Of a DNA stretch of 64,000 bases, positions 12,187 through 62,040 are shown one piece after another; the first letter of the stretch is position 1; the number at the start of each line of letters is the position of its first letter. Origin of the DNA: an uncultured Verrucomicrobiales bacterium (GTDB lineage Bacteria > Verrucomicrobiota > Verrucomicrobiia > Verrucomicrobiales > Akkermansiaceae); contig CAMQZC010000015.1 in NCBI GenBank assembly GCA_947039485.1, forward strand, positions 1 to 64,000, written 5' to 3'. The notes beneath the pieces are model-generated. The model did no database searches and was not told the origin of the DNA. It was given only the letters and a program-made list of their open reading frames with translations. Position numbers and translations under genes: made by a program.

Positions 12187-12198
12187 AAACTATACTGC

Positions 12199-12227: not shown

Positions 12228-12263
12228 GTAAATAATGAGTAATCGCGTAATTATCTTAAAAAA

Positions 12264-12299
12264 GAAGCAGCTCAGCAGTATAGACTGCGGAGCTGCTTT
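12264..12299 (-). terminator. Copy of the adk terminator hairpin (unit 1/2 boundary)
   Basis: A duplicate of the hairpin at 16782-16817: 16-nt arms around loop ATAG, with A-rich sequence on the left (U-run on the minus strand). One internal pair is mismatched here because only the right arm carries the T-to-G change seen on both sides in the next copy. Confidence 0.75.
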
Positions 12300-12429
12300 A
12301 GAAAATTGAGATGCTTATGCTTTTACTTCTCGGCGTAGGAGCGGGTAGCCGCAACGGTGCATGGCAGGGGGGCCGCAGATATAGCCAGATTGAGCAATCC
12401 CAAAGGCTGGCTGTTATCATGGCAACAAA

Positions 12430-12458
12430 AAGCCCAGTGAGGATAGCTCACTGGGCTT
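12430..12458 (-). terminator. Rho-independent terminator of paralogue B
   Basis: The 12-bp stem AAGCCCAGTGAG/CTCACTGGGCTT with loop GATAG, duplicated from the unit-1 terminator. It lies 27 bp after the stop codon of the gene at 12485 and ends in a U-run on the minus strand. Confidence 0.85.
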
Positions 12459-12484
12459 TGAAAAGCGTTGTTAAGCAGCTGAAC

Positions 12485-14449
12485 TTAGTTCATGATGAGA
12501 GATGCGCGCAGCTTGATGCGCTCTCCAACTTTCTCGGAGCTCATCTTGATGCTCTTGATATGCTTAAGGGTGTTGCTGATATCTTCATTATCAACAAGGT
12601 ATGAGTCAAGCAGAGGCGCGATGTTGAGATGCAAGGCCTCGCCTTGGAACTCAACGCCAGCGCTGCTGCTATAAGCTTGGTGAATCTTATCACCAGTCAA
12701 CTCGTCGCGGCTCAGGGTGAAGAAGCTATCGCTAACCTGTACCGTGGCAATTGGCATGCTTGCGAGACCCATGATCTGTACTGCGCGACCCATGGCCATC
12801 TGTAACTGGTGCGTGGCTGCGTCTCCTCGCTGCGCGCTCACGATGGGGAGGCCTTGGAGTATCTGCTCTGGCTTATGGTCAAACTTGACCATGGTGGACT
12901 TGATTGCGTCAAAAAGACCATTCCAGCCCTTAGCCAGCATCTGGCGGTCCTGCACCGCGCTAAAGAAGGTAGTGGTGACGGGGGCTGGGGGGGTGCTAGC
13001 CTGAGCGATGATGAGTCCTTTGGGTGAGCCTAAACCATTTGTCGTGTTCTTGTAGGCCTCGATGGCCAGCAGATCTTCCTTCTCAAATTTCTTTTGCAGG
13101 GCGCCCAATTTGTTGAGTTGCTCACTCCAGTCCTCGCCCATGATATGACCTGCTGCATTGGCTACATCGAGTCCGCAGTAGAAGAGCTCAAAAGCATCTA
13201 GATCAACGCTGGGCATGTTGATCCCTGTCGTCTCATAGTAGGCGATGGTATCAGGGGTCTGGGCTGCGGATTGCAGCTTCATTTTGCCTGGCTTATAGCT
13301 GTAGTTGCCTACGCCGATATCGGCCTCAATATGGAGGTTGCTGTCATGCCAGATGAGCGCCGATGCGTCGCCCTTGCTCTCGGGGAGAAGTGGCGCAATT
13401 GTCTCTGTGATTTTGAGGAGGCTTGTAGCTCCTTTCTCATAAATCTCTTTATTCTCAGGCTGAGCTGCGATAAATTCTCCGAAAAGATTAGTGAAGAACG
13501 TGGCCCTCTTCTTTAGCTCCTGCTGACTGCTGAAGAGTGAGTTTACCTTTTCATCGATAAAGGCGCAGAATGCGAGATTGTTATCCAACTTGCTGTCCAT
13601 AAAGGCTGCCTTAGGGCTGGCGAGTATAGATTGTTTAGGACTGCTTGCAAAGGATATTTTATCAAGATCAATGCCGAGTACAATGTTGACCTTGAGACCA
13701 TCGCGCTTATAGAGGATGTAGAGGTAAGGCCTATCGATGAGGGAGGGGAGTTGCTGAAGCTTGGCCATCTGATCATCGTCTAAGTCCGCATATTGCTTGC
13801 TCGCGAGCTTGGCAATTAACTGGCTATTGACGAGGATACCCTTGTAGCCGTTAGTCACAGCGAGGGTTGAACTATTGTTGCAGAACTTTTGGAAGACTTT
13901 CTCAAACTCGTCAAGCTGAGCTTCGCTGCCAGGGTGGTTTTCAATGGCAATGTATAAGCAGGGAATCTTGTCGGTTTGCAAGTTGGCGAGTATGGCTGTT
14001 GCGACCTTGGTCTTATATTCCTCAATAATCTGCTGATTTGCAGCAGGGGCTTTGCCGTATAATAAAGTGAGAGCATCTGTATTTTGGCTGATACTCAGGA
14101 GGCTGTTCATCGCTGTGAGGAACTCGGCGCTACCAGCACCACCACCGATGGCGATGCTGCTGATGGGCAGCAGCTGGGCGCTAATGCCTGCATCTGAAAG
14201 AATCTGCATGCCTAGAGGTGTTTTCTCTAACTTGGCCATCAAGCTGCGTAGGTCGCCGGCTGCGAGGAAATACTCTACATCCGCAGGAATCTGAGCGAGC
14301 GTGGGGAATACCGCTGCGCGTGCTGCAATCTGCTCATCTGTTTGGCTGCAGGTGACGTTGCTTGAGTTCTCTTGCTTGCAAGAGGCGAGGGTGCTTGCCG
14401 TAGCGAGAGCTAGACAGCCTGTAAGTGCAAGAAGCTGTGATTTTTTCAT
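12485..14449 (-). CDS. Lipoprotein, tandem paralogue B
   Basis: 654 residues. The signal peptide ends in STLASCKQE, a good lipobox, so the protein should be diacylated at Cys24 and membrane-anchored. It is collinear with paralogues A and C throughout, with most divergence in the segments around residues 95-145 and 200-240. It carries two local length differences: a missing short loop after FCNNSS and an insertion AVQIMGL near the C-terminus. The promoter and near-leaderless start are the same as the neighbours. Function unknown. Confidence 0.88.
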   Translation of the reverse strand: MKKSQLLALTGCLALATASTLASCKQENSSNVTCSQTDEQIAARAAVFPTLAQIPADVEYFLAAGDLRSLMAKLEKTPLGMQILSDAGISAQLLPISSIAIGGGAGSAEFLTAMNSLLSISQNTDALTLLYGKAPAANQQIIEEYKTKVATAILANLQTDKIPCLYIAIENHPGSEAQLDEFEKVFQKFCNNSSTLAVTNGYKGILVNSQLIAKLASKQYADLDDDQMAKLQQLPSLIDRPYLYILYKRDGLKVNIVLGIDLDKISFASSPKQSILASPKAAFMDSKLDNNLAFCAFIDEKVNSLFSSQQELKKRATFFTNLFGEFIAAQPENKEIYEKGATSLLKITETIAPLLPESKGDASALIWHDSNLHIEADIGVGNYSYKPGKMKLQSAAQTPDTIAYYETTGINMPSVDLDAFELFYCGLDVANAAGHIMGEDWSEQLNKLGALQKKFEKEDLLAIEAYKNTTNGLGSPKGLIIAQASTPPAPVTTTFFSAVQDRQMLAKGWNGLFDAIKSTMVKFDHKPEQILQGLPIVSAQRGDAATHQLQMAMGRAVQIMGLASMPIATVQVSDSFFTLSRDELTGDKIHQAYSSSAGVEFQGEALHLNIAPLLDSYLVDNEDISNTLKHIKSIKMSSEKVGERIKLRASLIMN

Positions 14450-14526
14450 AAACTATACTGCTTTATATGATGTTATGCCTCTGAGGTAAAGTAAATAACG
14501 CGTAATGGCGTAATTATCTAAAAAAA

Positions 14527-14562
14527 GAAGCAGCTCCGCAGTATAGACTGCGGAGCTGCTTC
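14527..14562 (-). terminator. Copy of the adk terminator hairpin (unit 2/3 boundary)
   Basis: Perfect 16-bp arms GAAGCAGCTCCGCAGT / ACTGCGGAGCTGCTTC with loop ATAG. Compared with the original at 16782-16817 an A-T pair has become C-G on both arms, a compensatory change. It is followed by a U-run on the minus strand. Confidence 0.85.
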
Positions 14563-14693
14563 AGGAAAATCGAGAGACTTATGCTTTTACTTCTCGGAGT
14601 AGGCGCGGGTAGCCGCAACGGTGCATGGCAGGGGGGCAGCAGATATAGCCAGATTGAGCAATCCCAAAGGCTGGCTGTTATCATGGCGACAAA

Positions 14694-14722
14694 AAGCCCA
14701 GTGAGCTATCCTCACTGGGCTT
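14694..14722 (-). terminator. Rho-independent terminator of paralogue C
   Basis: The same 12-bp stem as the other two units, with loop CTATC, placed 27 bp downstream of the stop codon of the gene at 14749. Confidence 0.85.
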
Positions 14723-14748
14723 TGAAAAGCGTTGTTAAGCCGCAGAAC

Positions 14749-16704
14749 TTAGTTCATGATGAGAGATGCGCGCACCTTAATGCGCTCGCCGACTTGCTCG
14801 GAGCTCATCTTGATGCTCTTGATGTGCTTGAGTGTATTGCTGATATCTTCATCATCAACAAGGCCTAAGTCCAGCAGAGGCGCGATGTTGAGCTGGAAGG
14901 CCTCGCCTTGGAACTCAACACCGGCGCTGCTGCTATAAGTTTGGTGAATCTTATCACCAGTCAACTCATCGCTGCTCAGTGTGAAGAAGCTATTGCTAAC
15001 CTGCACCGTGGCAATTGGCATGATTGCGGGACCCATGGCCATCTGTAACTGGTGCGTGGCTGCGTCTCCGCGCTGTGCGCTCGTGATTGGGAAGGCCTGG
15101 AGCATCTGCTCGGGATTCTGGTCAAACTTGACCATCGTGGACTTGATTGCGTCAAAAAGACCATCCCATCCCTTAGCCAGCATCTTGCGATCCTGCACTG
15201 CGCTAAAGAAGGTAGCGGTGACGGGAACTGGGGGCATGCTAGCCTTAGCGATGATGAGTCCTTTGGGTAAGCCTAGACCATTTGTCGTGTTCTTGTATGC
15301 CTCGATGGCCAGCAGATCTTCCTTCTCAAACTTCTTTTGCAGGTCGCTCAATTCGTTGAGTTGCTCACTCCAGTCATTGTCTGTGATATGGGCTACTGCA
15401 TTGGCCACATCGAGTGCGCTGTAGAAGAGCTCAAAAGCATCTAGATTAACGCTGGGCGTGTTGACCCCTGTCGTCTCATAGTAGGCGATGGTATTAGGGC
15501 TCTGGGCTGCGGATTGCAGCTTTACCTTGCCCGGCTTATAGCTGTAGTTGGCTATGCCGATATCGGCCTCCATATGGAGGTTGCTGTCATGCCAGATGAG
15601 TGTCGATGCGTCGCCCTTGCTCTCGGGGAGAACCGTCACAATAGTCTCTGTAATCTTGAGGAGGCTTGTAGCAGCTTTCTCATAAATCTCTTTATTCTCA
15701 GGCTGAGCTGCGATAAATTCTCCGAAAAGATTGGCGAAGAATACGGCACTATTCTTTAACTCCTTCGGACTGTGGAAGAGTAAGTTTACCTTTTCATCGA
15801 CAAAGGAGCAGAATGCGAGATTGTTAGCCAACTTGCTGTCCATAAAGGCGGCCTTAGAGCTGGCGAGTATGGATTGTTTAGGACTGCTTGCAAAGGCCAT
15901 CTTCTCAGTGTCTTCGCAAAGTACAATGTTGAGCTTGAGGCCATCGCGCTTATAGAGGAGGTAGAGGTTGTGCTTCTCCATGAGGGGGAGAAGTTGCTGA
16001 AGCTTGGCCATCTGATCATCGTCTAAGTCTGCATATTGCTTGGTCACGAGCTCGGAAAGTAACTTGCCTTTGGCGAGGATGCCCTTGTAGCCGTTAATCT
16101 CAGCAATCTCGATGCCTTCACTCGTAAAATCGTTGAAGTGCTTTTGGATGGCTTTCTCAAACTCATCAAGTTGAGCTTCGCTGCCAGGGTGGTTTTCTAT
16201 GGCAATGTATAAGCTGGGGATCTTGGGGATTTGCAGGTTGGCGAGTAGAGCTGTTGCGACCTTGCTCTGATATTCATCAATAATCTGCTGACTTATAGCA
16301 GGGGAATTGTCGAGTAACATGGTGAGATAGTCTGCATTTTGGATGATACTCAGGAGGCTGTTTATCGCTGTGAGGAAATCGGCGCTACCTGCACCACCAC
16401 CGATGGCGATGCTGCTGATGGGCAGCTGGGCGCTAATGCCCATGGCTGATAGACCCAGCTCCGTGCTCATAGGTGTTTTCTCAAATTTGGACATCAAGCT
16501 GCGTAGATCGCTGGCTGCGTGGAAATACTCTACGTCCGCAGGAATTTGAGCTAGCGCGGGGAATACCGCTGCGCGTGCTGCAATCTGCTGATCTGTTTGG
16601 CTGCAGGTGATGTTGCATGATTCCTCCTGCTTGCAAGAGACGAGGGTGCTTGCCGTAGCGAGTGCTAGGCAGCCTGAAAGTGCGAGAAGCTGTGATTTTT
16701 TCAT
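14749..16704 (-). CDS. Lipoprotein, tandem paralogue C
   Basis: 651 residues. The signal peptide ends in STLVSCKQE; Val at the -2 position is tolerated in lipoboxes, so lipidation at Cys24 is likely. It is the copy next to adk, and its upstream terminator is continuous with the real adk 3' end, so it sits at the ancestral right-hand border. Segments such as MSTELGLSAMGISAQLPISS differ from A and B by a short deletion. Like its paralogues it has its own promoter and terminator. Function unknown; three retained full-length copies argue that each is under selection. Confidence 0.88.
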   Translation of the reverse strand: MKKSQLLALSGCLALATASTLVSCKQEESCNITCSQTDQQIAARAAVFPALAQIPADVEYFHAASDLRSLMSKFEKTPMSTELGLSAMGISAQLPISSIAIGGGAGSADFLTAINSLLSIIQNADYLTMLLDNSPAISQQIIDEYQSKVATALLANLQIPKIPSLYIAIENHPGSEAQLDEFEKAIQKHFNDFTSEGIEIAEINGYKGILAKGKLLSELVTKQYADLDDDQMAKLQQLLPLMEKHNLYLLYKRDGLKLNIVLCEDTEKMAFASSPKQSILASSKAAFMDSKLANNLAFCSFVDEKVNLLFHSPKELKNSAVFFANLFGEFIAAQPENKEIYEKAATSLLKITETIVTVLPESKGDASTLIWHDSNLHMEADIGIANYSYKPGKVKLQSAAQSPNTIAYYETTGVNTPSVNLDAFELFYSALDVANAVAHITDNDWSEQLNELSDLQKKFEKEDLLAIEAYKNTTNGLGLPKGLIIAKASMPPVPVTATFFSAVQDRKMLAKGWDGLFDAIKSTMVKFDQNPEQMLQAFPITSAQRGDAATHQLQMAMGPAIMPIATVQVSNSFFTLSSDELTGDKIHQTYSSSAGVEFQGEAFQLNIAPLLDLGLVDDEDISNTLKHIKSIKMSSEQVGERIKVRASLIMN

Positions 16705-49202: not shown

Positions 49203-50339
49203 ATGCCTGCACAAAGCCCCCCACGCGCCTGGGTCGAGGTGGATCTCGAAGCGATAGCTCACAATTTAGACATTGCTCATCAGGCGGTGGGAGGAGCTCA
49301 TCTCATGCCTGTCATCAAGGCTGGCGCCTATGGTCATGGGCTAGAGCCTGTGGCTCGGCGCTTGAATCATGATGGTATCAGCTTCCTCGGTGTTGCCAAT
49401 GTGGGCGAGGCGCGCCGCATCAAGCGCATGGGCGGCAATAGTCGTCCTTTTATTCTCGGGCCCTCCTTTCCCGAGGAGCACGAGGAGCTTGTGCTCAATA
49501 ATTGGACCTGCAGCCTCTCTTCGATGGAGGAGGCGGAGCAGCTCAATCACTGGGCGGGGCTCTATGAGCGCAAGTTTCAGCTGCATCTAGCTGTTGATAT
49601 AGGGATGGGGCGCGAGGGTTTTTTGCCTAGTGATCTGGGCGCTCTCAAGGAGAAGCTCAAGCAGCTGCCGCATCTGGAGGTCGATGGGCTGATGTCTCAC
49701 TTCCCCTCTGCTGATGAGGATGTATCGAGTACGCAGTCTCAGATTGCGCTTTTTAGCGACTGTGTCAATGAGCTCTCATCATCATTTAACTTGCGCTACC
49801 GCCATGTGGCTGCGAGTGCTGGGCTGCTGGGCTATGATATTCCAGCGGCTAATCTCATCCGACCAGGTCTGCTACTCTATGGGGTGGCTCCGATGGCTTC
49901 AATTTACGATACTCTGCTGCGCCAGCCGCTCAAGCTTGCGGCGCGTGTGACACTGGTGCGCGATCTGCCCACAGGGCAGGGCGTATCCTATGGCAGCAGT
50001 TACCGCGCGAGTAAACCCATGCGCGTGGCAACGGTGGGCATCGGCTATGCGGATGGCTGGAGTCGCAAGCTCTCAGACTCAGGAGTGCAGCTCTGCATCA
50101 ATGGCAGACTCTGTCCCATGATTGGGCGCGTGACGATGGATCAAATTATGGCTGACGTCAGTGAGCTCTCAGAGGTTAAGTCAGGCGATATAGCCTATCT
50201 CATCTGCCCCGAGCAGTCGGTGGTAGATGTGGCGCGTCTCGCGGGAACCATCCCGTGGGAGGTGCTCACGGGGTTAGGCTCGCGCTTGCCTCGCTTTTAT
50301 TCCAACGAATCAAGCCCGATAGACTCAGCCCTTGACTAA
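49203..50339 (+). CDS. alr: Alanine racemase
   Basis: 378 residues. A PLP enzyme making D-alanine for peptidoglycan. It shows PRAWVEVDLEAIAHNL, the PLP-Lys motif MPVIKAGAYGHG (Lys about residue 40; usual VKANAYGHG), DIGMGREGF, RPGLLLYG, the second catalytic Tyr region GYADGWSRKLS, and MIGRVTMDQIMADV. The Ala-to-Gly and Asn-to-Gly changes in the AYGHG loop are mild. The C-terminus overlaps the deaminase gene on the other strand by 15 bp. Confidence 0.95.
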   Translation: MPAQSPPRAWVEVDLEAIAHNLDIAHQAVGGAHLMPVIKAGAYGHGLEPVARRLNHDGISFLGVANVGEARRIKRMGGNSRPFILGPSFPEEHEELVLNNWTCSLSSMEEAEQLNHWAGLYERKFQLHLAVDIGMGREGFLPSDLGALKEKLKQLPHLEVDGLMSHFPSADEDVSSTQSQIALFSDCVNELSSSFNLRYRHVAASAGLLGYDIPAANLIRPGLLLYGVAPMASIYDTLLRQPLKLAARVTLVRDLPTGQGVSYGSSYRASKPMRVATVGIGYADGWSRKLSDSGVQLCINGRLCPMIGRVTMDQIMADVSELSEVKSGDIAYLICPEQSVVDVARLAGTIPWEVLTGLGSRLPRFYSNESSPIDSALD

Positions 50340-50771
50340 GGGGAACTGCGCGCTGAGGGGGTACTCGCTCACCTCGATGAGCGCCACACCATACATCTGG
50401 GCAATTTGGGGGGCTTCGGACTTGGTATAAGCCTCGCCGTAGTAGATCGTCTTGACCCCATGCGCACAGAGTGCTTGCATGCAGGATGTGCAGGGCATGG
50501 TGGTGCAGGCGACAATCTTTGCCTGCCCCTTGGAGATGAGGCTACAGAGGTTAATCTCAGCATGCAGCATGAACTTCTGGCGACCGTCACGGTCATCCCA
50601 AAACCCCACAGGCGCACAAAAGCCGGGGTAGAGCCCATTGTAGGCGGTGCCAATCACGCGGTTATCTGCATCGAGAGCGGCTGCTCCAACCTTGCGGTAG
50701 GGATCTTCGGAGCGCAGGGCTGCCACATGCGCAAGCGCCATAGCGTATTGGGGGATAGCAATTCTTTCCAT
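50325..50771 (-). CDS. dCMP/cytidine deaminase-family zinc enzyme
   Basis: 148 residues from MERIAIPQYAMALA. It has the zinc-deaminase motifs HAEINL (ligand His, catalytic Glu) and PCTSCMQALCAHG (two Cys ligands). The RSEDPYRKVGAAALDADNRVIGTAYNG segment (in two parts) is typical of dCMP deaminase/ComEB proteins, which make dUMP for thymidylate synthesis. Free-cytidine or tRNA deaminases are less likely by motif spacing. Confidence 0.88.
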   Translation of the reverse strand: MERIAIPQYAMALAHVAALRSEDPYRKVGAAALDADNRVIGTAYNGLYPGFCAPVGFWDDRDGRQKFMLHAEINLCSLISKGQAKIVACTTMPCTSCMQALCAHGVKTIYYGEAYTKSEAPQIAQMYGVALIEVSEYPLSAQFPLVKG

Positions 50772-50859
50772 GCCTCTAATATACGCCATCAATGCTAGGA
50801 ATCAAGCTCTTTCTCAGCTCTTCTCTTGACAGCCCTTCTTCTTTTTGCTATAAAAAAGC

Positions 50860-51648
50860 GTGCTCTTGAGTCTGATTAATCTGGTTGTTTTATTTGTGTT
50901 TATTGCTCTGGCTATCTGGCAGAGTGTCAGCGGGCATACGATGTCTGATAGCTTGGCTGATATGCTGCTCTCTGTGCTGCTCACCCTTGGGTTTGTGGCT
51001 GTTGTTAGCAATGCTGCTCTCGGACTTGCGCGAGCGCTCTCTGCGCGCTCCTTTCTCCAGCCTGCCTGCTGGGCGATTCTATTTCTCTGCCTAGGCTCAA
51101 CAGCTACCGTGGTAACCACAACAGCGGGGAGTATGAAAAATATGCCCGTTGATGGGTCGAGCTGGGATGTTGATAGCCTCCCCGAGGGGAGTGAGGAGCT
51201 GCTCCTCAGTGTGGCACGAGGGGAGCAAGACATCTTGCGCTCAAATCTCCAGCCTGACTCAGAGCTCGCCGCGGCCGCGGCGGTCATTGCTATTGATTAT
51301 GCTCAGCTCTCATTATTGAGCGAGCTGCTCGACTCCGGCGTCTCAGCGAATAGCGTCTGGCAGGGGACTAGTCTGCTAGCTGCCGCGATCAACAAGAATG
51401 ATATCCCCGTGGTGGGAAAACTCCTCCAAGCAGGGGCAAATGTCAACCAGCAGGACGAGACAGGCAATAGCCCCCTCATCCTCGCCGTCATCGCCTCAAA
51501 TGAGAACCTCATCAAGCTGCTCATGCAGCATGGAGCTAATCCAAGCCTCTGCAACAAGGATGGCTACGATGCCCGCAGCTTTAGCTCCCTAGATCGCATC
51601 CTCAAACTCCTCAAGCCCCCCCCAAGCCATGACCGAAAAACAACTTAA
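50860..51648 (+). CDS. Membrane protein with periplasmic or cytoplasmic ankyrin repeats
   Basis: 262 residues from a GTG. Three hydrophobic helices (LINLVVLFVFIALAIW; LADMLLSVLLTLGFVAVVSN; PACWAILFLCLGSTATVVTT) precede a linker and three to four ankyrin repeats (about 140-255: LLSELLDSGVSANSVWQG, VVGKLLQAGANVNQQDETG, NLIKLLMQHGANPSLCNKDG). The 3' end overlaps the first DUF2157-like gene by 20 bp, placing it at the head of the membrane-protein operon. The N-terminal start is uncertain; a later ATG at 50940 would drop the first helix. Confidence 0.75.
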   Translation: MLLSLINLVVLFVFIALAIWQSVSGHTMSDSLADMLLSVLLTLGFVAVVSNAALGLARALSARSFLQPACWAILFLCLGSTATVVTTTAGSMKNMPVDGSSWDVDSLPEGSEELLLSVARGEQDILRSNLQPDSELAAAAAVIAIDYAQLSLLSELLDSGVSANSVWQGTSLLAAAINKNDIPVVGKLLQAGANVNQQDETGNSPLILAVIASNENLIKLLMQHGANPSLCNKDGYDARSFSSLDRILKLLKPPPSHDRKTT

Positions 51649-52792
51649 GCTCTGGCAAACGCAGGGCATCATCTGCTCTGCTGGAGCGGAGGACATCCGC
51701 AATGCCTGCGGAGTGGAGCCCATGCAGCGCGGCCGCATCCTGCGCCCTCTCATGAGCCTGATTGCTTGCCTGCTCCTCCTCGCCGCCGCCAGTATCTTCA
51801 TCAATGAGAACTGGGGGCAGATCGCTGATATCTGCAAGCAGATTGGCGCGGCTCTCCTGCTGCTGCTCTGCTGGCTCGGATTTGCCATCGCGCGCTGGCG
51901 CAAGGCTGTCTGGATCAGCGAACTCTTTGCCCTCGCTGGTTGCGGCATGTGGATACTCAATCTCATGCTCCAAACGTATCTATTTAACATGACGCCGCCT
52001 GCGGTCGATGGCCTCCCCCTCGTCATAGCTGGTGTTTTGCTCCTCCCTCTGATCTTCCCCCTGCGCCTCTGCTTTGTGCTCCTTGTTTGCTTATCCACCT
52101 TTTGGGTGACATTGCTCTATACTACACCCAGCGACGAGAGTGTCTTGGGACTGCTCCCTGCGGAGTCAAACACCTCGGACATGAAGGCTTGGGGCTATTT
52201 AGTTGCGGGCTTGGCTTTGCTCTTTTGGGCGGCTGTCAGTCAGATTTTTGGGCAGAGTAAGGGTGAGTATCGCCATTATGGCTTGATCTCGCCTCTCTGC
52301 TGGGTACTCTCGCTGCTTTGTTTTTTCCTGCTGGCAGACTGCCGTTTTCGTGGATATGATACCTACCAATCAATGATAACGCCCATCTACTATCTGCCCT
52401 GCATTCTGCTAGGTCTCTTTGCATGGGCGAGCATGGGGCGTGGCATCAGCAAGACCGGCCAGTGCTGCCTCTTCTTACTCAGCTTTGCCCCCAGCCTGAG
52501 TCTCGCCTACTATCTTGAGGGTTACGATGATATCCGTATCCTTTATGCGGCTCTCGCCTGCTTCAGCCTCACTGCCATGGGCTATGCCCTCGCCACGCGC
52601 AGCGCGCTGTGGCTCTGTGGCTCCATCGTCCTCGTCTTTACTTCCTTTGTCTTCTTGATGAGCTTCAATCGAAGCATTGCCGACTTGGATAAAGCTCCCT
52701 TGCTCGGCTTCTTTGGGTTACTAACAGCTCTCATCGCCTATGCCTCCCTGCGCAGGGCAGGTAAGCTCCATGTAGAAGGGGCTGCCCAATGA
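51629..52792 (+). CDS. DUF2157-like membrane protein, cassette 1
   Basis: 387 residues. A short N-terminal helix (MTEKQLKLWQTQGIICSAGAEDI) typical of DUF2157 precedes ten or so transmembrane helices. The first pair reads LIACLLLLAAASIFINENWGQIADICKQIGAALLLLLC (broken), with the 'ENW' turn shared by all five relatives in this window. DUF2157 and DUF4401 proteins are often encoded together and have no known function. Overlaps: 20 bp with the ankyrin gene, 4 bp (ATGA) with the next gene. Confidence 0.85.
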   Translation: MTEKQLKLWQTQGIICSAGAEDIRNACGVEPMQRGRILRPLMSLIACLLLLAAASIFINENWGQIADICKQIGAALLLLLCWLGFAIARWRKAVWISELFALAGCGMWILNLMLQTYLFNMTPPAVDGLPLVIAGVLLLPLIFPLRLCFVLLVCLSTFWVTLLYTTPSDESVLGLLPAESNTSDMKAWGYLVAGLALLFWAAVSQIFGQSKGEYRHYGLISPLCWVLSLLCFFLLADCRFRGYDTYQSMITPIYYLPCILLGLFAWASMGRGISKTGQCCLFLLSFAPSLSLAYYLEGYDDIRILYAALACFSLTAMGYALATRSALWLCGSIVLVFTSFVFLMSFNRSIADLDKAPLLGFFGLLTALIAYASLRRAGKLHVEGAAQ

Positions 52793-53622
52793 TGCGCTCC
52801 CTAGCCCTTATCTGCGTCTTGCTCCTGCAGTTTGCCTGGATTGGCTACAGCTATCTCGATATTCCTCGCCGCCTCGCGGAGGCACCTAAGCTACTGCTGC
52901 CCTGCAAATATGAGCCGATAAATTCTCAATCAACATCGGGCAAGCTTTCTCTATTCTTTGTTGCCTCTCAATGGGACATGGGAGAGGGTATGCGCGTTGA
53001 GCCTTACTCTAATTTTTGGGATGCAGACGATCTCATGCTCGTTGAGTCAGATGAGCTTCTCGCTTATCAACGCGAGGCGCTTTTTGAGACGGGCTACAAG
53101 CAGCCGTGCTCCACGCGCCCCTATCAATTCTATAAGAAAGACGATGCGAAGCCTCTACCTAGCTTCTCCCAGCCTAGCAAGAAGCGCAAGGACGCCCATG
53201 TGTTTTCTCTGTATGGTGGTCGAGGAGAGTCCCACTGGTTCTTTACATACCATCAAAGGCTTGGTGTCTATGCCTATTTTAATCAGTCCGGGCGATTCAC
53301 CCGCCTCGATGAAAGTCGCCAAGCTGCCCCCTTGTCCGGTGAGTATGCTGTGATGCTTCACCAAGGTTACCAAGGTTCTCTATTGATCAAACCCTTTGTT
53401 CATCAAGATAAGATCAAGCTATCTATTGTCCCTCAGTCCGCTCGTGAATGGAACTATAGCCCAAGCAAGGAGGCGAGCTCCTTACCCGAGCTTGGGTATG
53501 ATGAGTCCTTTATGGTCGAGTTTGCTATCATGAATCGACAACTCACGCCTCTGCGTATTCTCCCCGAAATTCATACACTTAGTCCAGCCACGGAAACCAG
53601 TCTTCAAGAAAGCCATGAATAA
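52789..53622 (+). CDS. Membrane-anchored protein, GDYXXLXY-like partner, cassette 1
   Basis: 277 residues. One N-terminal helix (ALICVLLLQFAWIGYSY) then a hydrophilic domain with LFFVASQWDMGEGMRVE and APLSGEYAVMLHQGY. It aligns with the protein at 56639 at ASQWDMG/ANQWQLG and at SGEYAVML/AGEYIVAL. GDYXXLXY-domain proteins usually follow DUF4401 genes; here the motif reads GEY, so the relation is tentative. Coupled by ATGA overlaps with its upstream neighbour and an 8-bp overlap downstream. Confidence 0.75.
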   Translation: MMRSLALICVLLLQFAWIGYSYLDIPRRLAEAPKLLLPCKYEPINSQSTSGKLSLFFVASQWDMGEGMRVEPYSNFWDADDLMLVESDELLAYQREALFETGYKQPCSTRPYQFYKKDDAKPLPSFSQPSKKRKDAHVFSLYGGRGESHWFFTYHQRLGVYAYFNQSGRFTRLDESRQAAPLSGEYAVMLHQGYQGSLLIKPFVHQDKIKLSIVPQSAREWNYSPSKEASSLPELGYDESFMVEFAIMNRQLTPLRILPEIHTLSPATETSLQESHE

Positions 53623-54817
53623 AGCCGAAATCTCCAAACTCGTCGAGCAAGGACTCCTCAACCCCGATCAAGTAAGCCAAATCAAGCAGCTTGGGCCCCG
53701 CTTCTATGCCCTCTGGGCTGGCCGCGTCTTAGGCATGGTTGCCATCCTCCAGATTATCGTTGCCATCTGCCTTGTCATATCGAGCTACTGGGATCAGATG
53801 GGGGATATTATCCCGCAGTTAGGTGTTGCTGCTCTGCTGTTGCTAAGCTTGCTGGGTTGCATCATGTTCTATCGTAGGAAAGCCCCGCTGCTCGCCAACG
53901 GCTGCGCCATTGCGACCCTAGCCTTCCTCAACGCCAACCTTGTCTTGCAGGATGATTTGCGTGAGCTTGACCTGCATGTCCTCGATTACATGAGCCTCGT
54001 CTGGCTAGCCTCACTGCTCCTCGTGCTCTTCCTTCCCCTGCGAGTGCTCAGCTATGCTTTCTTCATCTGCTCAGTCGCTTTTCTCAAGGGGCTTACATCC
54101 TTAGAGTGTCATTGGATGGGGCTGAGCGAGACGCTACCTGATGGAATGGGCAATTTTATCATCTTGGCGACCATCATGCTCGTTGCCTCTATCGGTGATA
54201 TGGCCTCGCAGCTGCGTAGCCGCTACCAGAGCTGGCAGGGATTTGCCACGCTGGCTTGGTACTGCATCCCTCTCGTGAGTATTGGCCTCATTTTGTACAT
54301 TGATACCGAAGATTACACGCTGAGCAACTATCTCATTACCATAGCTCCAATCCCCTTGCTCTATATCGGTCTTTGTGTGCGCGAGGGCTGGGGATTCTCC
54401 ATCACGCGCCTGCTCATCTGCCTCTCGCCTCTCGCCTGTGTCCTGCTCTCACTGATATGTCTCCCAGAGGATTGGGTTGTCATTGTCATCGCTTTGTGTG
54501 CTATGAGCCTGCTCTATTACTGGCATAGCCTGCGCAACAACGGACGCCCCATCTGGATTGCGGTCTCAATCCTAATCCTCATGATATCAAACGGCTTTCT
54601 GATCATTAATTTCAATGGTAACGAGGCTTTTGCCAATGGTTGGCTCTACCGCTGCATGATCCTTGTCGCTGAGGCCCTCATCATCTTACTGCTCGGGCGC
54701 ATCTACCTGCAGGCTCGTCATCGAGCCCCCATCCCCACACCCCAACCCCAGCCTGAGGCTCAGCCCCAAGGCGTCCCCTCTCTACCACCAGTACCACCCA
54801 TTAATCCTCAATCATGA
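53615..54817 (+). CDS. DUF2157/DUF4401-like membrane protein, cassette 1
   Basis: 400 residues. The cytoplasmic N-terminus MNKAEISKLVEQGLLNPDQVSQI matches the DUF2157-type leader helix ('G.L..eq...i'). About ten transmembrane helices follow, starting IVAICLVISSYWDQMGDIIPQLG, and a Pro/Gln-rich tail (PIPTPQPQPEAQPQ). It is the third member of the first cassette and differs clearly from the one at 51629. Overlaps its neighbours by 8 and 4 bp. Function unknown. Confidence 0.82.
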   Translation: MNKAEISKLVEQGLLNPDQVSQIKQLGPRFYALWAGRVLGMVAILQIIVAICLVISSYWDQMGDIIPQLGVAALLLLSLLGCIMFYRRKAPLLANGCAIATLAFLNANLVLQDDLRELDLHVLDYMSLVWLASLLLVLFLPLRVLSYAFFICSVAFLKGLTSLECHWMGLSETLPDGMGNFIILATIMLVASIGDMASQLRSRYQSWQGFATLAWYCIPLVSIGLILYIDTEDYTLSNYLITIAPIPLLYIGLCVREGWGFSITRLLICLSPLACVLLSLICLPEDWVVIVIALCAMSLLYYWHSLRNNGRPIWIAVSILILMISNGFLIINFNGNEAFANGWLYRCMILVAEALIILLLGRIYLQARHRAPIPTPQPQPEAQPQGVPSLPPVPPINPQS

Positions 54818-55566
54818 AATTAGCCATCATCCTCGCCCTAGCCCTCACTCACGCCAGTTTACTGCACGCTGAGGACTTTACCCTCCTTGATAAGAGCATC
54901 CTCAAGGAGGCCTCTGTGAGTCGCTCAGGGAGTGACTTTGTCATTATTAGTCACGCAGGCGGTGTGCAGCGTGTTGCTGCAAAAGAACTCAGCCCGGAGT
55001 TGCAAACGCGATTCAAAATGACCCCGGAGCAGGTGGAGTCTCGCCTCGAAATAACGAAGGAAAAGAAGGCGGCCGCTCGCGCTCGCGCTAATACCGCCCA
55101 TGAGAAGCACCTCGCTATCATCAATGCCAGCAAGAGCAAGCCACGTCATCTCAATGCCAAAGAGTTGCAAAGCATAATTGAGCCATACATGGAGCTACCA
55201 CGCGCGGCGAGCGAATACCTTGTCGCCGACTGGAATCGCCGCGAGTTCCTGCGCCTCAACCTCAAGGATGAAGCTGCCGAGTACCGCGACCTGCGCCACG
55301 AGAAGGCCCCAGCCTTTGAGCGCCTGCGCGAGAGCCAAGAAGAGCCAGCCGAGCTTGAGGCGGAGAATAAGAAACTCACTGAGCAGAATGCCGCGCTGCG
55401 TGCGCAAATCGCCCAGCTGCAAGCTGAGGCTACGAGAGAAAAGGAGCCGCGTAAGGTCATCATCAACAACCCTGTGCGCTACGTCCCTGTGCGCCCATTC
55501 TACCGCCCCCACAGGCCGTATCCTCGCCCTGAGCCTCGCCCCATTATCAGCATCAAGCATAACTAA
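54814..55566 (+). CDS. Exported coiled-coil protein with a short beta module
   Basis: 250 residues with a signal peptide (MKLAIILALALTHASLLHAE). The module at about 22-75 (LLDKSILKEASVSRSGSDFVIISHAGGVQRVAAKEL, broken) is the same short beta segment seen in the protein at 3134. A charged helix and coiled coil follow (about 80-215: EPAELEAENKKLTEQNAALR), then a Pro/Arg/Tyr-rich C-terminus (RPFYRPHRPYPRPEPRP). It splits cassette 1 from cassette 2 and was probably inserted. Coupled to both neighbours (4-bp overlap; 2-bp gap). Confidence 0.75.
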   Translation: MKLAIILALALTHASLLHAEDFTLLDKSILKEASVSRSGSDFVIISHAGGVQRVAAKELSPELQTRFKMTPEQVESRLEITKEKKAAARARANTAHEKHLAIINASKSKPRHLNAKELQSIIEPYMELPRAASEYLVADWNRREFLRLNLKDEAAEYRDLRHEKAPAFERLRESQEEPAELEAENKKLTEQNAALRAQIAQLQAEATREKEPRKVIINNPVRYVPVRPFYRPHRPYPRPEPRPIISIKHN

Positions 55567-55568
55567 GA

Positions 55569-56642
55569 ATGAACACGAACGAAATCAAGGCCTCCCCCCC
55601 GCTCATCCCCTTGCTAATGCGGATTGCCGCTGCCGCCCTCCTGCTGTCCGCCGCCGCCTACAGTATCGACAAGAACTGGGGCGTCATACCTGATAGTATC
55701 AAGCAACTCTGCGGTATTCTCCTGCTCATTGGTAGCTTCTTGGGTCTTCTTCTTGCCCAGCGTCGTCAGATGCCTTGGACGAGCGAGCTGCTCGGCATTG
55801 CTGTCTGCGCCTGCTGGGCAGGCAATATTGCCCTACAGGGCTACTTGTTTAATTCTCAAAATCCCAGCATTGAGGGGCTCGTTCTCATCCTCTTGGGTAT
55901 CCTGCCACTTCCCTTTATCCTGCCCCTGCGTGGCGTGATGATCTTCGTGGTTGCTCTGAGCTTAGGTTCCTGTTTCGAATCTGTGAGCAGCGCTGGTTAC
56001 ATCAGCCCCTTGGCCGTGGCTGACTTCGTCTTATTGAGTCCTATTGATCCGGAGTTCTGTCACCTGCTCGCGCCATCCCTGCTCGGCATGCTTTGGGCGA
56101 TCATCCTCCAGCAGCTCAGCCGCAAAGCCATCTATCAAGGCTATGCGCTACTCGTGCCGCTCGCTTGGGTTGTATCGGGGATGCTCTGCCTTGGCAGCTG
56201 CTTTGAGCTCGATGGTCATGAGGCTACGCCTGCCATGGGCATTTGGCTTGTATGGCTGGGCGTTGCCGCAATCATCGGGGCCGCTGGCTACGCCAGCCTG
56301 CGCCAGCGTGATGGCATCGCGCTCTCCCTGCCGCGCCTCCTCATTGTCATTGCTCCCACGCTGTTGCTGCTGCTCACTCGCTATCAAGTCTGCCTGCTAC
56401 CCTGTCTTGGGGCTCTCATCTTTAGTTACAGTGTTGCGGTCTGCTTGTACGCATGGCAGATACGCCAATGGGTCTGGTTGATCGGGGGCGTGTGCTTCCT
56501 TTCCATGTGCCCTAGCTGGTTTAATAGTCATGCGGATATCCCTCAATGGCAAGAAGCTGCTATTGTAGCCGCGCTTGGGCTCTTTAGCCTCGCGATGAGC
56601 TACCTCTATCTTAAGCCTCAAAAAGAAAGCAAAAGCCTGTGA
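55569..56642 (+). CDS. DUF2157-like membrane protein, cassette 2
   Basis: 357 residues. Closest in the window to the protein at 51629: LLSAAAYSIDKNWGVIPDSIKQLCGILLLIGS and MPWTSELLGIAVCACWAGNIALQGYLFN parallel INENWGQIADI and VWISELFALAGCGMWILNLMLQTYLFN. It lacks the leader helix of cassette 1 (starts MNTNEIKASPP). About ten transmembrane helices. The stop overlaps the next GTG start by 4 bp. Part of its 3' end is present again in the decayed copy at 58598. Confidence 0.82.
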   Translation: MNTNEIKASPPLIPLLMRIAAAALLLSAAAYSIDKNWGVIPDSIKQLCGILLLIGSFLGLLLAQRRQMPWTSELLGIAVCACWAGNIALQGYLFNSQNPSIEGLVLILLGILPLPFILPLRGVMIFVVALSLGSCFESVSSAGYISPLAVADFVLLSPIDPEFCHLLAPSLLGMLWAIILQQLSRKAIYQGYALLVPLAWVVSGMLCLGSCFELDGHEATPAMGIWLVWLGVAAIIGAAGYASLRQRDGIALSLPRLLIVIAPTLLLLLTRYQVCLLPCLGALIFSYSVAVCLYAWQIRQWVWLIGGVCFLSMCPSWFNSHADIPQWQEAAIVAALGLFSLAMSYLYLKPQKESKSL

Positions 56643-57499
56643 AACGCCCGATTCTCCTTCTATTCCTCTTGTTAGCCCAGCTCGCCTTTTTCGCTTACAA
56701 TGCCAAAAGTACCCAATCGCGGCTTGCGTCAGCTGAGATAATCAGTCTGCCTGTTAGCCTGCCTGACGGCTATCCTGATACCGATGACACCAGAGTGCCA
56801 GTGCAAACCATGATTATGGCAAATCAGTGGCAGCTTGGTCGCAGTATCAAGATTGAGTTTGATGATGAGTTTGATGATGAGCTTAGACGTGGACCTGTTA
56901 TCCATCATGATGATAGAGCTGATGTTGTTTTTGATAAGCTTTTGAAGAATCGCTACTGGCGGTATGAAGAGAGTGATGAGGCCGCTAGCCATCCGCCATG
57001 CAGCAGCTTCGCTCAGCCTGATGATAAGGCCGCTGATGCAGTCATCATCGAGTATAGCCCGTCATCTTATCCGAGCATAAAGAGGCCGAAGAACTCCAGC
57101 TCTGAGGCGAATCTAAAGTGTTTCTTTGCCTATTATAAGAAAGGTCAGGGAGAGCTACTTGAGCTGAGTCGCATCGAATACAGTACCGCTCCCGAGGCTC
57201 TAGCTGGTGAGTATATCGTGGCTCTGGGCGATCACCTTGATATGCGTCACTACATCCTCCGCGATGCTGAGGGTAAAGAGAGCCTGCAATTGCGCATCAC
57301 CCTCGGCTATAACGCCCCCACTTGGCCGTTCTATGATAAGAATCCTTCAATCTCAGGGGAGAATAGCAGCAGTCTCCCTTACAATCTAGATCTCTATCAT
57401 CTCGGTGGCGGTCGCTATGTGCCCAAGGCGCTGAGCCGCCTGCCGCTTGAGCCTCTCCTCCCCGATATCGATAACCTCAAAAAGAACACCGCAAAATGA
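56639..57499 (+). CDS. Membrane-anchored protein, GDYXXLXY-like partner, cassette 2
   Basis: 286 residues from a GTG (overlap GTGA). One N-terminal helix (PILLLFLLLAQLAFFAY) then a hydrophilic domain with MIMANQWQLGRSIKIEFDDE, a repeated FDDEFDDELR stretch, CFFAYYKKGQGELLEL, ALAGEYIVALGDHLDM and a closing LYHLGGGRYVPKALSRLPLE. The counterpart at 52789 shares the same plan. A second, internally deleted copy lies at 58653-59174. Probable envelope protein acting with its DUF2157/DUF4401-like neighbours; role unknown. Confidence 0.75.
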   Translation: MKRPILLLFLLLAQLAFFAYNAKSTQSRLASAEIISLPVSLPDGYPDTDDTRVPVQTMIMANQWQLGRSIKIEFDDEFDDELRRGPVIHHDDRADVVFDKLLKNRYWRYEESDEAASHPPCSSFAQPDDKAADAVIIEYSPSSYPSIKRPKNSSSEANLKCFFAYYKKGQGELLELSRIEYSTAPEALAGEYIVALGDHLDMRHYILRDAEGKESLQLRITLGYNAPTWPFYDKNPSISGENSSSLPYNLDLYHLGGGRYVPKALSRLPLEPLLPDIDNLKKNTAK

Positions 57500-58578
57500 A
57501 CGCTAGCCCTCATACCAAAAAATCCAGCTTTGATCGCGCTGCAGGCATCCTCATGGGGATTTCTGCTGCTGCCTTTTTCGGCATCTCTCTCCTCATCTTG
57601 TCTGATGAGTATTGGGATAAATTAGGAAGCATCGCGCGCGAGCTCATGATTATTATTCCGCTGCTGCTCAGCTTTGCTGGGCTGCTCATAGCCTATTGTA
57701 AGCAAAAACCGCTGCTCGTGGAGATTTGCGGCATTCTTGTGGCTTTGCTCTTGATGATTAATATAAGTATTCGTTTTGATGATTGGGACATGCCTTTTGT
57801 GGAGACGATCGCGCTCTATAGCGTGCTCATGGTGTTGCTCACGCTCTGGCGTCCTCTGCTCAGCTTTGGCTTGGCTAGCGCGATATCTCTACTGAGTCTT
57901 CTCTTTAGCGTGATGAATACATACCCTGAGAGGAGCTTCTTGGGATTGGGAGATATGGTTGACTCGGATGCTGAGTGTAGCCTGTACTTATCCCTGCTTG
58001 TATTGCTGATTGCGCTCATTGATTATGCGGCTCATTCTCGCTGGCAGCGCTATCGCAAGTTGGGGCTTTTGTCGGGTATTGGTTGGTTTGGTCTTTGTGT
58101 TTTTTATCTGCCACTTGTACACACTATTGATTCTTTTGATTCTTTTGAATCTTTCTTTGCTTGGCTAGTCATTCCTCTTGCCTGTGCCAGTGTCGCGCTT
58201 TACCTCGCGAGATTGGCGCGTGAGCGCATGGAGGGACGTGAGTCTAGTTGGTACTGGCGTGCGCTGCTTTGTTTTTCACCTCTTTGGATGAGTGTGTATG
58301 CGGTTGTGGTGGGTGATAGCTTCAGCTCCTCTAGTGAGAATATGATGATGGCTTTTGCGCTTGGTGCTTTTAGTATGTTGCTCTTCTATTACGCAGTTTT
58401 GCAGGGTGGACACCGTTTTTGGGCAATTATGGCTCTCATCATGCTTGTTGCTGCAACGGGGCAACTGATGTTTTCCTTGTCATGGGTGGCTGTCGTATTG
58501 GTACTTGTAGCTGAGGCAATTCTGCTCTGCTTTGTGAGTCGTTATGCGCTGAGCGTTTTGGCAAAGGCGCGGGCGTAG
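57496..58578 (+). CDS. DUF4401-like membrane protein, cassette 2
   Basis: 360 residues, about eleven transmembrane helices beginning AAAFFGISLLILSDEYWDKLGSIARELMIIIPLLLS (broken). The 'DEYWDKLG' turn corresponds to 'SSYWDQMG' of the protein at 53615, its cassette-1 counterpart. The 3' half uses more AT-rich codons than cassette 1. The ATG overlaps the preceding gene by 4 bp. Last intact gene of the operon. Confidence 0.82.
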   Translation: MNASPHTKKSSFDRAAGILMGISAAAFFGISLLILSDEYWDKLGSIARELMIIIPLLLSFAGLLIAYCKQKPLLVEICGILVALLLMINISIRFDDWDMPFVETIALYSVLMVLLTLWRPLLSFGLASAISLLSLLFSVMNTYPERSFLGLGDMVDSDAECSLYLSLLVLLIALIDYAAHSRWQRYRKLGLLSGIGWFGLCVFYLPLVHTIDSFDSFESFFAWLVIPLACASVALYLARLARERMEGRESSWYWRALLCFSPLWMSVYAVVVGDSFSSSSENMMMAFALGAFSMLLFYYAVLQGGHRFWAIMALIMLVAATGQLMFSLSWVAVVLVLVAEAILLCFVSRYALSVLAKARA

Positions 58579-58597
58579 GCAGGGCTGCTCTGGGTCG

Positions 58598-59210
58598 TTA
58601 GCCTCGCGATGAGCTAGCTCTATCTTAAGAATAATCAAGAAAGAAAAATTCGATAAAGCGCACGATCCTCCTCCTCTCCCTCTTGTTAGCCCAGCTCGCC
58701 TGGCTCGCCTACTATCCCGTAAGTACCAAATCGCAGCTTGCATCAGCCGAGCTAATCAGTCTGCCTTTTCGCCACCCTCCTGATTACTCTGGCTCGAGTG
58801 AGCCAATAAAGCTCTTTATCATGGCCAATCAGTGGCAGCTTGGGCGTAGTATCAAGATTGAGTTGGATCATGATGATAAGCTTTGCTATGGACTAGTTGC
58901 CCAACATGTTTTTAGCCGTGAGGATGTTCTTGGTTTGCTTTGGCGGTCTGATTGTACATCCTCGTCTGCTGATGAATATTGCGACCTGCCAAAAAGTAGC
59001 TTCTCTCAGCCTGATGATAAGCGTGTTATCGATGCTGATTGTTGGCGTAGCCTCCGCAAGATGGCGTTCTATCATCTCGGTGGTACTCGCTATGTGCCCA
59101 AGTCGCGGAGCTCTTCACCCCTTGAGACCCTACCCTCCGATATCGATAATCTCAAAAAGAATGCCGCAAAATGACCGCTAGTTCCCATGGTGGAAAATTC
59201 GGCTTTGATT
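58598..59210 (+). pseudogene. Decayed third cassette (copy of the GDYXXLXY-like gene and flanks)
   Basis: The segment starts as a copy of the last approximately 45 bp of the gene at 55569 (SYLYLK, now with TAG after AMS). It then copies the gene at 56639 with its GTG start changed to ATA (58653-58655), and ends as a copy of the first approximately 45 bp of the gene at 57496 (now stopped by TGA). Within the middle gene about 120 residues are missing between SFSQPDDK and FYHLGGTRYVPK. A 163-codon frame from TTG at 58683 remains open, so a truncated product cannot be excluded. Confidence 0.88.
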
Positions 59211-59253: not shown

Positions 59254-60537
59254 TTAGAACATGAAGACGCTCTGGATACCCCAGACCATCTCCTCAGAGC
59301 GGCCGCTGTAGGCTGTGTCAAAGATGTACTGGAAGTGGGGCGTGATGCGGATGTAGTCGTTGACTTGGAAGATGTAGATGAGCTCAATGGGCTTCTCCCA
59401 GCTGTTGACGCGTGGGTTCTCCTCATTGTCCTGACCCTTGAAAACACCAAAGGCAGCACCTGCGTAATCGCGGGGACGGCTCTTGAAGAGCCTAAATTGC
59501 GTGCCAAAGCTCAGCTCAGATTTGAAGCCTAGCTCCTCGCGAGCACCCCAGCCTGCACGCGTGTAGAGGCTGATGTTGTCGGTTGGGTCATACTCCGCGC
59601 TGCCTGTGAGCCCCCAGTTACCTCGTGTGCAGGAGTGCCCGTCTTTTGATCCCTCGACGCCTCGGTAGAAGGGGTTGAGGCGTATGATGCTGCGCTCGTT
59701 GTTGAATCGTTGGCTCCACTCACCAACAATAGCCATGCCACGCCCCGAGCGGAAGGGGTTGCCTCCCTTGTAGTTGTGCGTGCGCGTGACGGCAATCATG
59801 CTATGCTGGTTGTCACTGATGGCGTATTGGTAGATGGCGCCAAAGTTGCTGTCGATGATGGGGAGCACACGTGAGTTACAGAAGCCGCCGTTGGTGAATC
59901 CACTGAAGCTGTTGTTGGCGATACCGACGATGTCGAAGTAGTTGCTCAGGTCAACGACGCCTGCGATGATGAGATGCTTTTTTCTATCAAAGTATTGCAT
60001 GATCGACACCTCGGGTAGCGCGAAATCATGGGGGCCAAAGTAGTCGCCATGGATGGATGAGGCGCTGCCTATGGACTGGATGAAGTTGGGCTCGCTGTGG
60101 CGGGTCTTTTTATCCAGCCCTACCGATCCTGTCATCTTGACGCGTAGGAATGTGCCACCATCTTTCTCATCCTCGATGAGTTGCTGGGTGAGTCGCGCGT
60201 GGATGAGAAAGATATTTGCCTCGTTGTGGGCGAGGTCATAGTTGTGTTTGGATCCCCAGTAGCCGTAGGCCATCTCAAGTTGCCACTCGGTACCGAGCTT
60301 CTCATGGGCTGAGATTTTGATGACGTTATCCCCATCCATCGGTGTGCAGCGGTTGATGTAGTCAGCGAGGCTGCGCCCGTACTCAGCGGCCATGTGCTGG
60401 TTGATGTGCTTGATGATGGCGGGGCGTTTGGGCTTGCTTGTGCTAATCTCATCGCGGCTCTCGCTTGCTTGATTTGCAAGCAGGGGGTGGATGCAGACTG
60501 CGGCAAGAATGAGGAGGGCTGCGGAGAATCTAATCAT
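59254..60537 (-). CDS. Outer-membrane porin, OprB-like, paralogue 1
   Basis: 427 residues from MIRFSAALLILAAVCIHPLL, a Sec signal; an in-frame ATG 8 codons earlier is possible. Alternating beta strands (GTEWQLEMAYGYWGSKHN, DYFGPHDFALPEVSIMQYFD, RGMAIVGEWSQRFN) and a C-terminal aromatic residue (QSVFMF) mark a beta-barrel assembled by BAM. It resembles carbohydrate-selective porins. An N-terminal helical stretch precedes the barrel. It is about half identical by eye to the neighbour at 60808. Confidence 0.87.
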   Translation of the reverse strand: MIRFSAALLILAAVCIHPLLANQASESRDEISTSKPKRPAIIKHINQHMAAEYGRSLADYINRCTPMDGDNVIKISAHEKLGTEWQLEMAYGYWGSKHNYDLAHNEANIFLIHARLTQQLIEDEKDGGTFLRVKMTGSVGLDKKTRHSEPNFIQSIGSASSIHGDYFGPHDFALPEVSIMQYFDRKKHLIIAGVVDLSNYFDIVGIANNSFSGFTNGGFCNSRVLPIIDSNFGAIYQYAISDNQHSMIAVTRTHNYKGGNPFRSGRGMAIVGEWSQRFNNERSIIRLNPFYRGVEGSKDGHSCTRGNWGLTGSAEYDPTDNISLYTRAGWGAREELGFKSELSFGTQFRLFKSRPRDYAGAAFGVFKGQDNEENPRVNSWEKPIELIYIFQVNDYIRITPHFQYIFDTAYSGRSEEMVWGIQSVFMF

Positions 60538-60679
60538 CCAACAGATTAGCAATGGTCTCATGGATTGTCAATGTTGAAATTAAAAGGAGCTGATACTTCT
60601 GTGTCTGTTATTCTCTCGACCTTATACGCTCTCTGTGCCGCCCATGGCTTGCGCGCTCCCTAGAATTTAACACACAAGA

Positions 60680-60709
60680 GAGGGTAGGAAGCACGACCTT
60701 CCTACCCTC
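60680..60709 (-). terminator. Terminator of porin paralogue 2
   Basis: A 12-bp stem GAGGGTAGGAAG/CTTCCTACCCTC with loop CACGAC about 100 bp past the porin stop codon. The U-run on the minus strand is weak (CTTGTGTG), so efficiency is uncertain. Confidence 0.7.
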
Positions 60710-60807
60710 AGAGTTATACACGTTATGTTATGATTGCAGGTACCGACGAAGATACATGACTTTGTCTTGTGATGCTTAAGGGGCAATTTAGCAGTGCCCT
60801 CTAAACA

Positions 60808-62040
60808 TTAGAAGGAGAATACCGTCTGAACACCAATGACTGTCTGGTCAGATGTAGCGGCGTATGATGGGTTGTGGATGTACTGGCAGTGAGGTACAAT
60901 TTTCACGTAATCGTTGATTTGGAAGCTGTAGATGACTTCGAGCACGCCTTGGCGGCTGTTTTCGGTAGCGTCGCTCTCAGAGTTAGCTGCTTTGAATACG
61001 CCGTATGCGATACCCAGGAAGTCGTCTTCGCGGCTGCTGAATGGACGGATGTTGGTGCCGACGCTGACGTCGAAGGATGCTCCGAGTTCTTGCTTGGCTC
61101 CGAATCCTGAGCGCAGGAAGAGATCAACCTTGTCGCATGCGGCGTATTCAATGCTACCAGCGAGGCCGTAGTTGATGCGGGAGCAGTCGCTGCCCTTGGC
61201 ATCACTACCAGCTACGCTGTCGATGAAGGGGTTGAGGCGCAGGACGGTCTTTTCATCAGCTGTGTAGTAAGCGTACTCACCAACAACTGCGTAGCCACGA
61301 CCGGAACCGAATGGGTTGTAACCGCTGGATGTGCATGTGCGCGAGATTGCAATCATACCGTGTTGGTTAGGTGCAAGCTCAGCTTGGAAGATAGCGCCGA
61401 GGTTGCTGTCAACGAGAGGCAGGACGGTGGAGTTCATGAAGCCAGTGTTGGCGAAGCTGCAGAAGGAGTCGTTTGCGATGCCTACTCCGTCAAAGTAGTT
61501 GGTGAGGTTGACAACACCAAAGATGAGGCTATATTTCTTGTTGTCAAAGTACTGCATGATGGCGATTTCGGGGAGAACGAAGTCGTTGGTACCAAAGTAG
61601 TCACCATGGATGTCTGTGCCTGTGCCCATTGCGGAGACGAAGTCTGGATCGCTATCCTTGCTGCGTGAGTCCAGTGCGACTGATCCGGAGAGTTCGAGGC
61701 GCAGCCATGTGCCACCGTTTTTGTCGTCTTGGAAGATTCGCTGGTTGAGCTGCGCGTGGAGGAGGTAGAGGTTAGCTACGTCGTTTGCTGCTGGGTCGCC
61801 GTTGTTGGTGGACCAGAAGCCATATGCCATGTCTACTGCCCACTCTGTACCGTAGTTCTTGGATGGGGTCAGCTTGTAAGCTGGGTCAATATGTTCACAT
61901 GGTGTGAACATGTTGATGCCTTCCAGAATGCTAGAGACGCTCTCTGTTGCAACTGTTGTTGTCGGTGTTTCCGTTTTCGCGTGGAGGCTCATGCTGTTTA
62001 GAGTACAGAGCGCTGCTGCTATGATGTGTGTTTTTTTCAT
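60808..62040 (-). CDS. Outer-membrane porin, OprB-like, paralogue 2
   Basis: 410 residues. Signal peptide MKKTHIIAAALCTLNSMSLHA, a 16-18-strand barrel pattern (GTEWAVDMAYGFWSTNN, DYFGTNDFVLPEIAIMQYF, GRGYAVVGEYAYYT) and the terminal QTVFSF with C-terminal Phe. Several Cys are paired in periplasmic or surface loops (CSFAN, RTCTSSG, DCSRINYG) and have counterparts in paralogue 1. Its codon usage looks stronger and the promoter region separate, suggesting it is the more highly expressed of the two. Confidence 0.88.
   Translation of the reverse strand: MKKTHIIAAALCTLNSMSLHAKTETPTTTVATESVSSILEGINMFTPCEHIDPAYKLTPSKNYGTEWAVDMAYGFWSTNNGDPAANDVANLYLLHAQLNQRIFQDDKNGGTWLRLELSGSVALDSRSKDSDPDFVSAMGTGTDIHGDYFGTNDFVLPEIAIMQYFDNKKYSLIFGVVNLTNYFDGVGIANDSFCSFANTGFMNSTVLPLVDSNLGAIFQAELAPNQHGMIAISRTCTSSGYNPFGSGRGYAVVGEYAYYTADEKTVLRLNPFIDSVAGSDAKGSDCSRINYGLAGSIEYAACDKVDLFLRSGFGAKQELGASFDVSVGTNIRPFSSREDDFLGIAYGVFKAANSESDATENSRQGVLEVIYSFQINDYVKIVPHCQYIHNPSYAATSDQTVIGVQTVFSF

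Follow-up and report, generated by a model that had tools for sequence, protein, structure and literature searches.

Eight open reading frames (ORFs) were confirmed at positions 50860-58578 of the window (the whole 64,000-nucleotide stretch of DNA analyzed), all on the + strand. A three-gene cassette of order A-B-C is present twice, as A1-B1-C1 and A2-B2-C2; cassette 1 sits between two further genes, ank and cc, and cassette 2 follows cc. Overlaps are 20 bp at ank/A1, 8 bp at B1/C1 and 4 bp each at A1/B1, C1/cc, A2/B2 and B2/C2, and the sole gap is 2 bp at cc/A2. Long ORFs with homologues that overlap in this manner within one operon are not due to chance. The first-pass annotation had described the same eight overlapping genes, and its ORFs, coordinates and strand hold; the extent that it gave for the array falls short, since a decayed third copy was missed. 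The features, with products as predicted, are:

50325..50792, - strand: deaminase-like gene; divergent neighbor and synteny anchor shared with relatives
50860..51648, + strand: ank; three N-terminal transmembrane (TM) segments and ankyrin repeats (Pfam Ank, E = 5.5e-11); resident gene
51629..52792, + strand: A1; DUF2157 membrane protein, ~11 TM (PF09925, 51.5 bits)
52789..53622, + strand: B1; single N-terminal TM anchor and a domain that is probably periplasmic; related to GDYXXLXY-type proteins but lacking the motif
53615..54817, + strand: C1; assigned as a second DUF2157 paralogue, ~11 TM (PF09925, 38.4 bits)
54814..55566, + strand: cc; exported coiled-coil protein with a Pro-rich tail; resident gene
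55569..56642, + strand: A2; DUF2157 membrane protein without the N-terminal cytoplasmic motif (PF09925, 46.4 bits over profile positions 37-144 alone)
56639..57499, + strand: B2; anchored protein with a GTG start, counterpart of B1
57496..58578, + strand: C2; assigned as a DUF2157 paralogue, ~12 TM (PF09925, 27.7 bits by hmmscan, 33.0 in the genome search)
58587..59209, + strand: remnant of a third cassette; duplicated A2 tail, B3 and the initial 13 codons of C

The deaminase-like gene is found at 76-82% identity in 54 other genomes of the genus, out of 59 searched. A simple consensus scan for an operon promoter was convincing nowhere, with fewer candidates than in shuffled sequences; the equivalent scan for a terminator also gave nothing convincing, its candidates being more numerous than in shuffles and scattered inside genes. 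Right after the third remnant, two tandem paralogous genes resembling those for outer membrane proteins occupy 59254-62040 (- strand). Elsewhere in the window, at 10219-16704 (- strand), are three tandem paralogues of ~650 amino acids each with near-identical N-termini.

Family assignment of the cassette proteins

Pfam cut-offs were 32.4 bits for DUF2157 (PF09925), 30.4 bits for DUF4401 (PF14351) and 27 bits for GDYXXLXY (PF14345). The DUF2157 cut-off is exceeded by A1, A2 and C1, and C2 falls just under it by hmmscan and just over it in the genome search. NCBIfam gave nothing above cut-off for A, B or C. A profile made from C1 and C2 matches genus DUF2157 with an E value of 2.6e-21 over 335 columns, and the same profile compared with DUF4401 by hhalign yields a probability of 1.5-3.5%. 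No Pfam match to DUF4401 was found in C1 or C2. The AlphaFold2 model of C1 is helical (pLDDT 73.3) and gave no significant match in a fold search of the PDB, and C1 alone, used as a query against the genome contigs, recovered no relative. Judged by their sequences, C1 and C2 are full-length DUF2157 paralogues and not DUF4401 proteins. Note that another product of the window, a 426-amino-acid multi-TM protein (4790-6070), may itself be distantly related to the DUF2157 proteins; a protein encoded at L042:6446-7681 starts like it, and it is the L042 protein that an iterated DUF2157 profile recovers.

The first-pass annotation had taken C to be DUF4401-like and the cassettes to be the widespread DUF2157/DUF4401/GDYXXLXY trio, here duplicated; the first assignment is contradicted by the Pfam and profile results, and the second loses its support along with it. 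The window does share with the trio a set of three genes encoding two polytopic proteins and one anchored protein, and although the tree puts C with genus DUF2157, an AU test of C grouping with DUF4401 gives no rejection (p = 0.29). Against this, DUF4401 is above cut-off in none of 76 Akkermansia genomes searched. In the wider order it occurs in 11 of 142 genomes, each time as the neighbor or fusion partner of a DUF2157 match. In the loci seen, DUF4401 comes directly after DUF2157, and where the GDYXXLXY gene was checked (L049 and L050) it is third, whereas in the window C comes after B, and B is missing the GDY motif. A duplicated canonical trio is thus largely refuted, and we regard it as quite unlikely.

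The B proteins were sought in the same way. No PF14345 match was found in B1, B2 or B3, and B1 gave no Pfam hit at all. Some Akkermansia B proteins are above the cut-off (that of L045 scores 32), and these relatives carry a DPRDxxRGDY motif near residue 50. B1 and B2 are without this stretch, as are B proteins of a clade with tandem units (L105, L112-L115), and the "GEY" of the window proteins aligns ~130 residues downstream of the site in relatives. Of the "GEY-motif anchored protein" described previously, the anchor and the GEY stand, but the motif is at a different site and the GDYXXLXY match is lacking. A B1+B2 profile nevertheless matches genus B proteins (hhalign, E = 8.9e-11), and the position after DUF2157 is also shared. 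The AlphaFold2 model of B2 has an N-terminal helix and a beta-rich domain (pLDDT 58.7), with no significant match in a PDB fold search. Because window-type B was found outside the genus in none of 387 genomes of the phylum, transfer from such a source is without support.

Duplication and decay of the cassettes

Identity between counterparts is low (A1/A2 ~30%, B1/B2 28%, C1/C2 26%). Each pair is nevertheless recovered as sisters, A1/A2 with support 100/99 and C1/C2 with 98/94 in a 55-row tree that has long branches, for which the tool warns of long-branch joins, and B1/B2 with 98/99 in the B tree. A grouping of A1 and C1 as sisters is rejected by the AU test (p = 0.027). Since the counterparts are sisters for all three genes, the three-gene unit predates its duplication. 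The first-pass annotation had claimed two cassettes whose members correspond one to one, and had named members not being counterparts in a tree as the contrary result; in none of the trees is a member of one cassette parted from its counterpart in the other. The N-terminal DUF2157 motif is kept in A1 and C1 and lost in both A2 and C2, which is a change across the whole cassette.

The remnant begins 8 bp past the C2 stop codon, and 58587-59209 repeats 56573-57534 at 76-80% DNA identity in three main blocks. It contains the A2 tail, a start-less B3 and a C that is cut off by a stop after its first 13 codons. In B3 the GTG start has become ATA, and ~120 residues from the middle, including the GEY region, are deleted. 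Its dN/dS relative to B2 is 0.76, as expected of a decaying copy; B3 is a pseudogene.

That the entire array has lost its function and is decaying, in a lineage that evolves fast, would fit this pseudogene, the loss of the GDY motif and the DNA ligase tree, in which the window genome is on a long, deep branch that also explains part of the cassette divergence. All six cassette ORFs, however, are full-length, open and tightly overlapping despite divergence of pN ~0.5 and pS ~0.7, and we consider general decay of the array unlikely.

The ank-cc pair and the history of the locus

The two genes that flank cassette 1 are immediate neighbors in 22 further Akkermansia loci, eight of which are beside the same deaminase. 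In three genomes (G002, G163 and G006) deaminase, ank and cc stand side by side in that order, and there is no DUF2157 match. The cc of the window is 36-40% identical to those of L126, L127 and L129, and cc is found in 40 of the 76 genus genomes. The relatives with matching contigs are Akkermansia, mostly from herbivore guts. Because ank and cc are kept together without cassettes in the 22 loci, they are the resident genes and the cassettes are the additions. This reverses the first-pass annotation, in which ank and the coiled-coil gene were local insertions into an original cassette operon. The dissimilarity of ank and cc to the cassette genes would agree with that order of events, but the synteny refutes it, and window-type cassettes are absent from all other genomes searched; we assign it next to no probability. 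The retained deaminase synteny also bears on the possibility that separate loci were joined during assembly. The genome is a draft in 38 contigs, but at both ank/A1 and C1/cc the reading frames overlap, by 4-20 bp, and this speaks against such an artefact, which we hold to be very improbable.

Over the 76 genomes, the presence of cc is negatively associated with that of DUF2157; both occur in 10 genomes where ~20.5 would be expected (Fisher p = 1e-6, kinship ignored), so that ank-cc and the cassette need not depend on each other. At least nine relatives have both, and among the cc loci read in relatives none has DUF2157 beside cc. No close relative was found that displays intermediate steps of cassette gain.

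The best explanation of these data, in which we place moderate confidence as a whole, is as follows. A resident Akkermansia ank-cc operon acquired a DUF2157-B-DUF2157' cassette, which probably arose when a second DUF2157 paralogue (C) joined the two-gene DUF2157-B unit native to the genus. Duplication of the cassette placed one copy inside the ank-cc pair and one past cc; a segment of the latter copy was subsequently duplicated once more and decayed. The genes, their homology, the duplication, the order of insertion and the decay are shown by the sequences; the two envelope complexes that the cassettes would now specify are inferred, as are their topology and function.

Related units and a proposed envelope complex

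The usual unit in Akkermansia is a DUF2157-B (A-B) pair. A tandem A-B-A'-B' arrangement is present in G176, G193 and G016 and apparently also in G014; G167 has two A-B pairs with a purN-like gene between them, and G010 (L186) has B-A-B at a contig end. The window resembles this DUF2157-GDYXXLXY pair (PF09925 and PF14345; L045, L112) in that a polytopic DUF2157 protein precedes an anchored B, usually with a short overlap or gap, in that the B proteins are related by profile and in that tandem doubling occurs in several lineages. It differs in having A-B-C with a second DUF2157, in its merger with ank-cc and in its B without the GDY motif. The trio of other families (L009, L049, L050) likewise combines two polytopic proteins and one anchored protein in one operon, whereas in the window a DUF2157 paralogue replaces DUF4401 and the order is A-B-C, not A-D-B. 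In another genus, a single reading frame of 716 amino acids (L245:1477-3627) matches both DUF2157 and DUF4401, and this fusion suggests that the two polytopic members work together. The co-evolution analysis proposed by the first-pass annotation was run for A and B across the genus, where their distances correlate (mirror-tree r = 0.90; 0 of 5000 permutations), with a partial r of 0.56 after control for DNA ligase (12 genomes only).

Hydrophobic segments number 11-12 in A and C; B has one N-terminal anchor, ank has three N-terminal segments and cc has a signal-peptide-like start. The positive-inside rule would place the ankyrin repeats of ank on the periplasmic side. Each cassette may encode an inner-membrane complex of two different DUF2157 proteins of 11-12 helices and one anchored B, the beta-rich domain of which would be placed in the periplasm. 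The two cassettes would have diverged into two versions of this complex, and ank and cc could supply periplasmic interaction surfaces from the same transcript. Of the matched complex envisaged in the first-pass annotation, what holds is that the cassettes are true duplicates whose members diverge together; the complex itself we infer.

Literature on these families was searched, and no report of their function was found. In Fusobacterium, a GDYXXLXY protein was recovered together with FtsX and EnvC on purification (PMC5915739), and the membrane part of LiaF, from the lia/PSP envelope-stress system, is formed by DUF2157 (PMC11237479). LiaF thus resembles A and C in the annotation of its membrane part, but its C-terminal DUF2154 toastrack domain was not found in A or C by Pfam. 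By analogy with these two reports, the cassettes may act in envelope maintenance or stress sensing, and the most likely reading is that A, C and B of each cassette form an inner-membrane complex for envelope maintenance, in two versions that have diverged. More tentatively, and with rather less than even probability, complexes of two unlike polytopic proteins and one anchored protein may have evolved repeatedly (DUF2157 with DUF4401 and GDYXXLXY; A-B-A'-B'; DUF2157 with DUF2157' and B), one of them here having become part of the periplasmic ank-cc operon and then separated into two specialized versions.

The arrangement is a variant of one already known for this uncharacterized family, and the array looks like lineage-specific remodeling of a little-studied envelope family, not a new kind of system. 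These families are common yet have no assigned function, and the locus names concrete partners for tests in cultivable Akkermansia. It indicates that a second DUF2157 can occupy the place held elsewhere by DUF4401, that the units duplicate whole and that ank-cc and a cassette can belong to one operon, and it corrects a naive view of the core genes and the added ones.

At L112:3846-7380, two Sel1-repeat-like genes precede the A-B-A'-B' tandem on its upstream side, so repeat proteins recur beside these cassettes. G053 has two occurrences of a block that combines a superoxide-dismutase-like gene with an A-B pair (L037:5137-7791 and L038:4945-7587).
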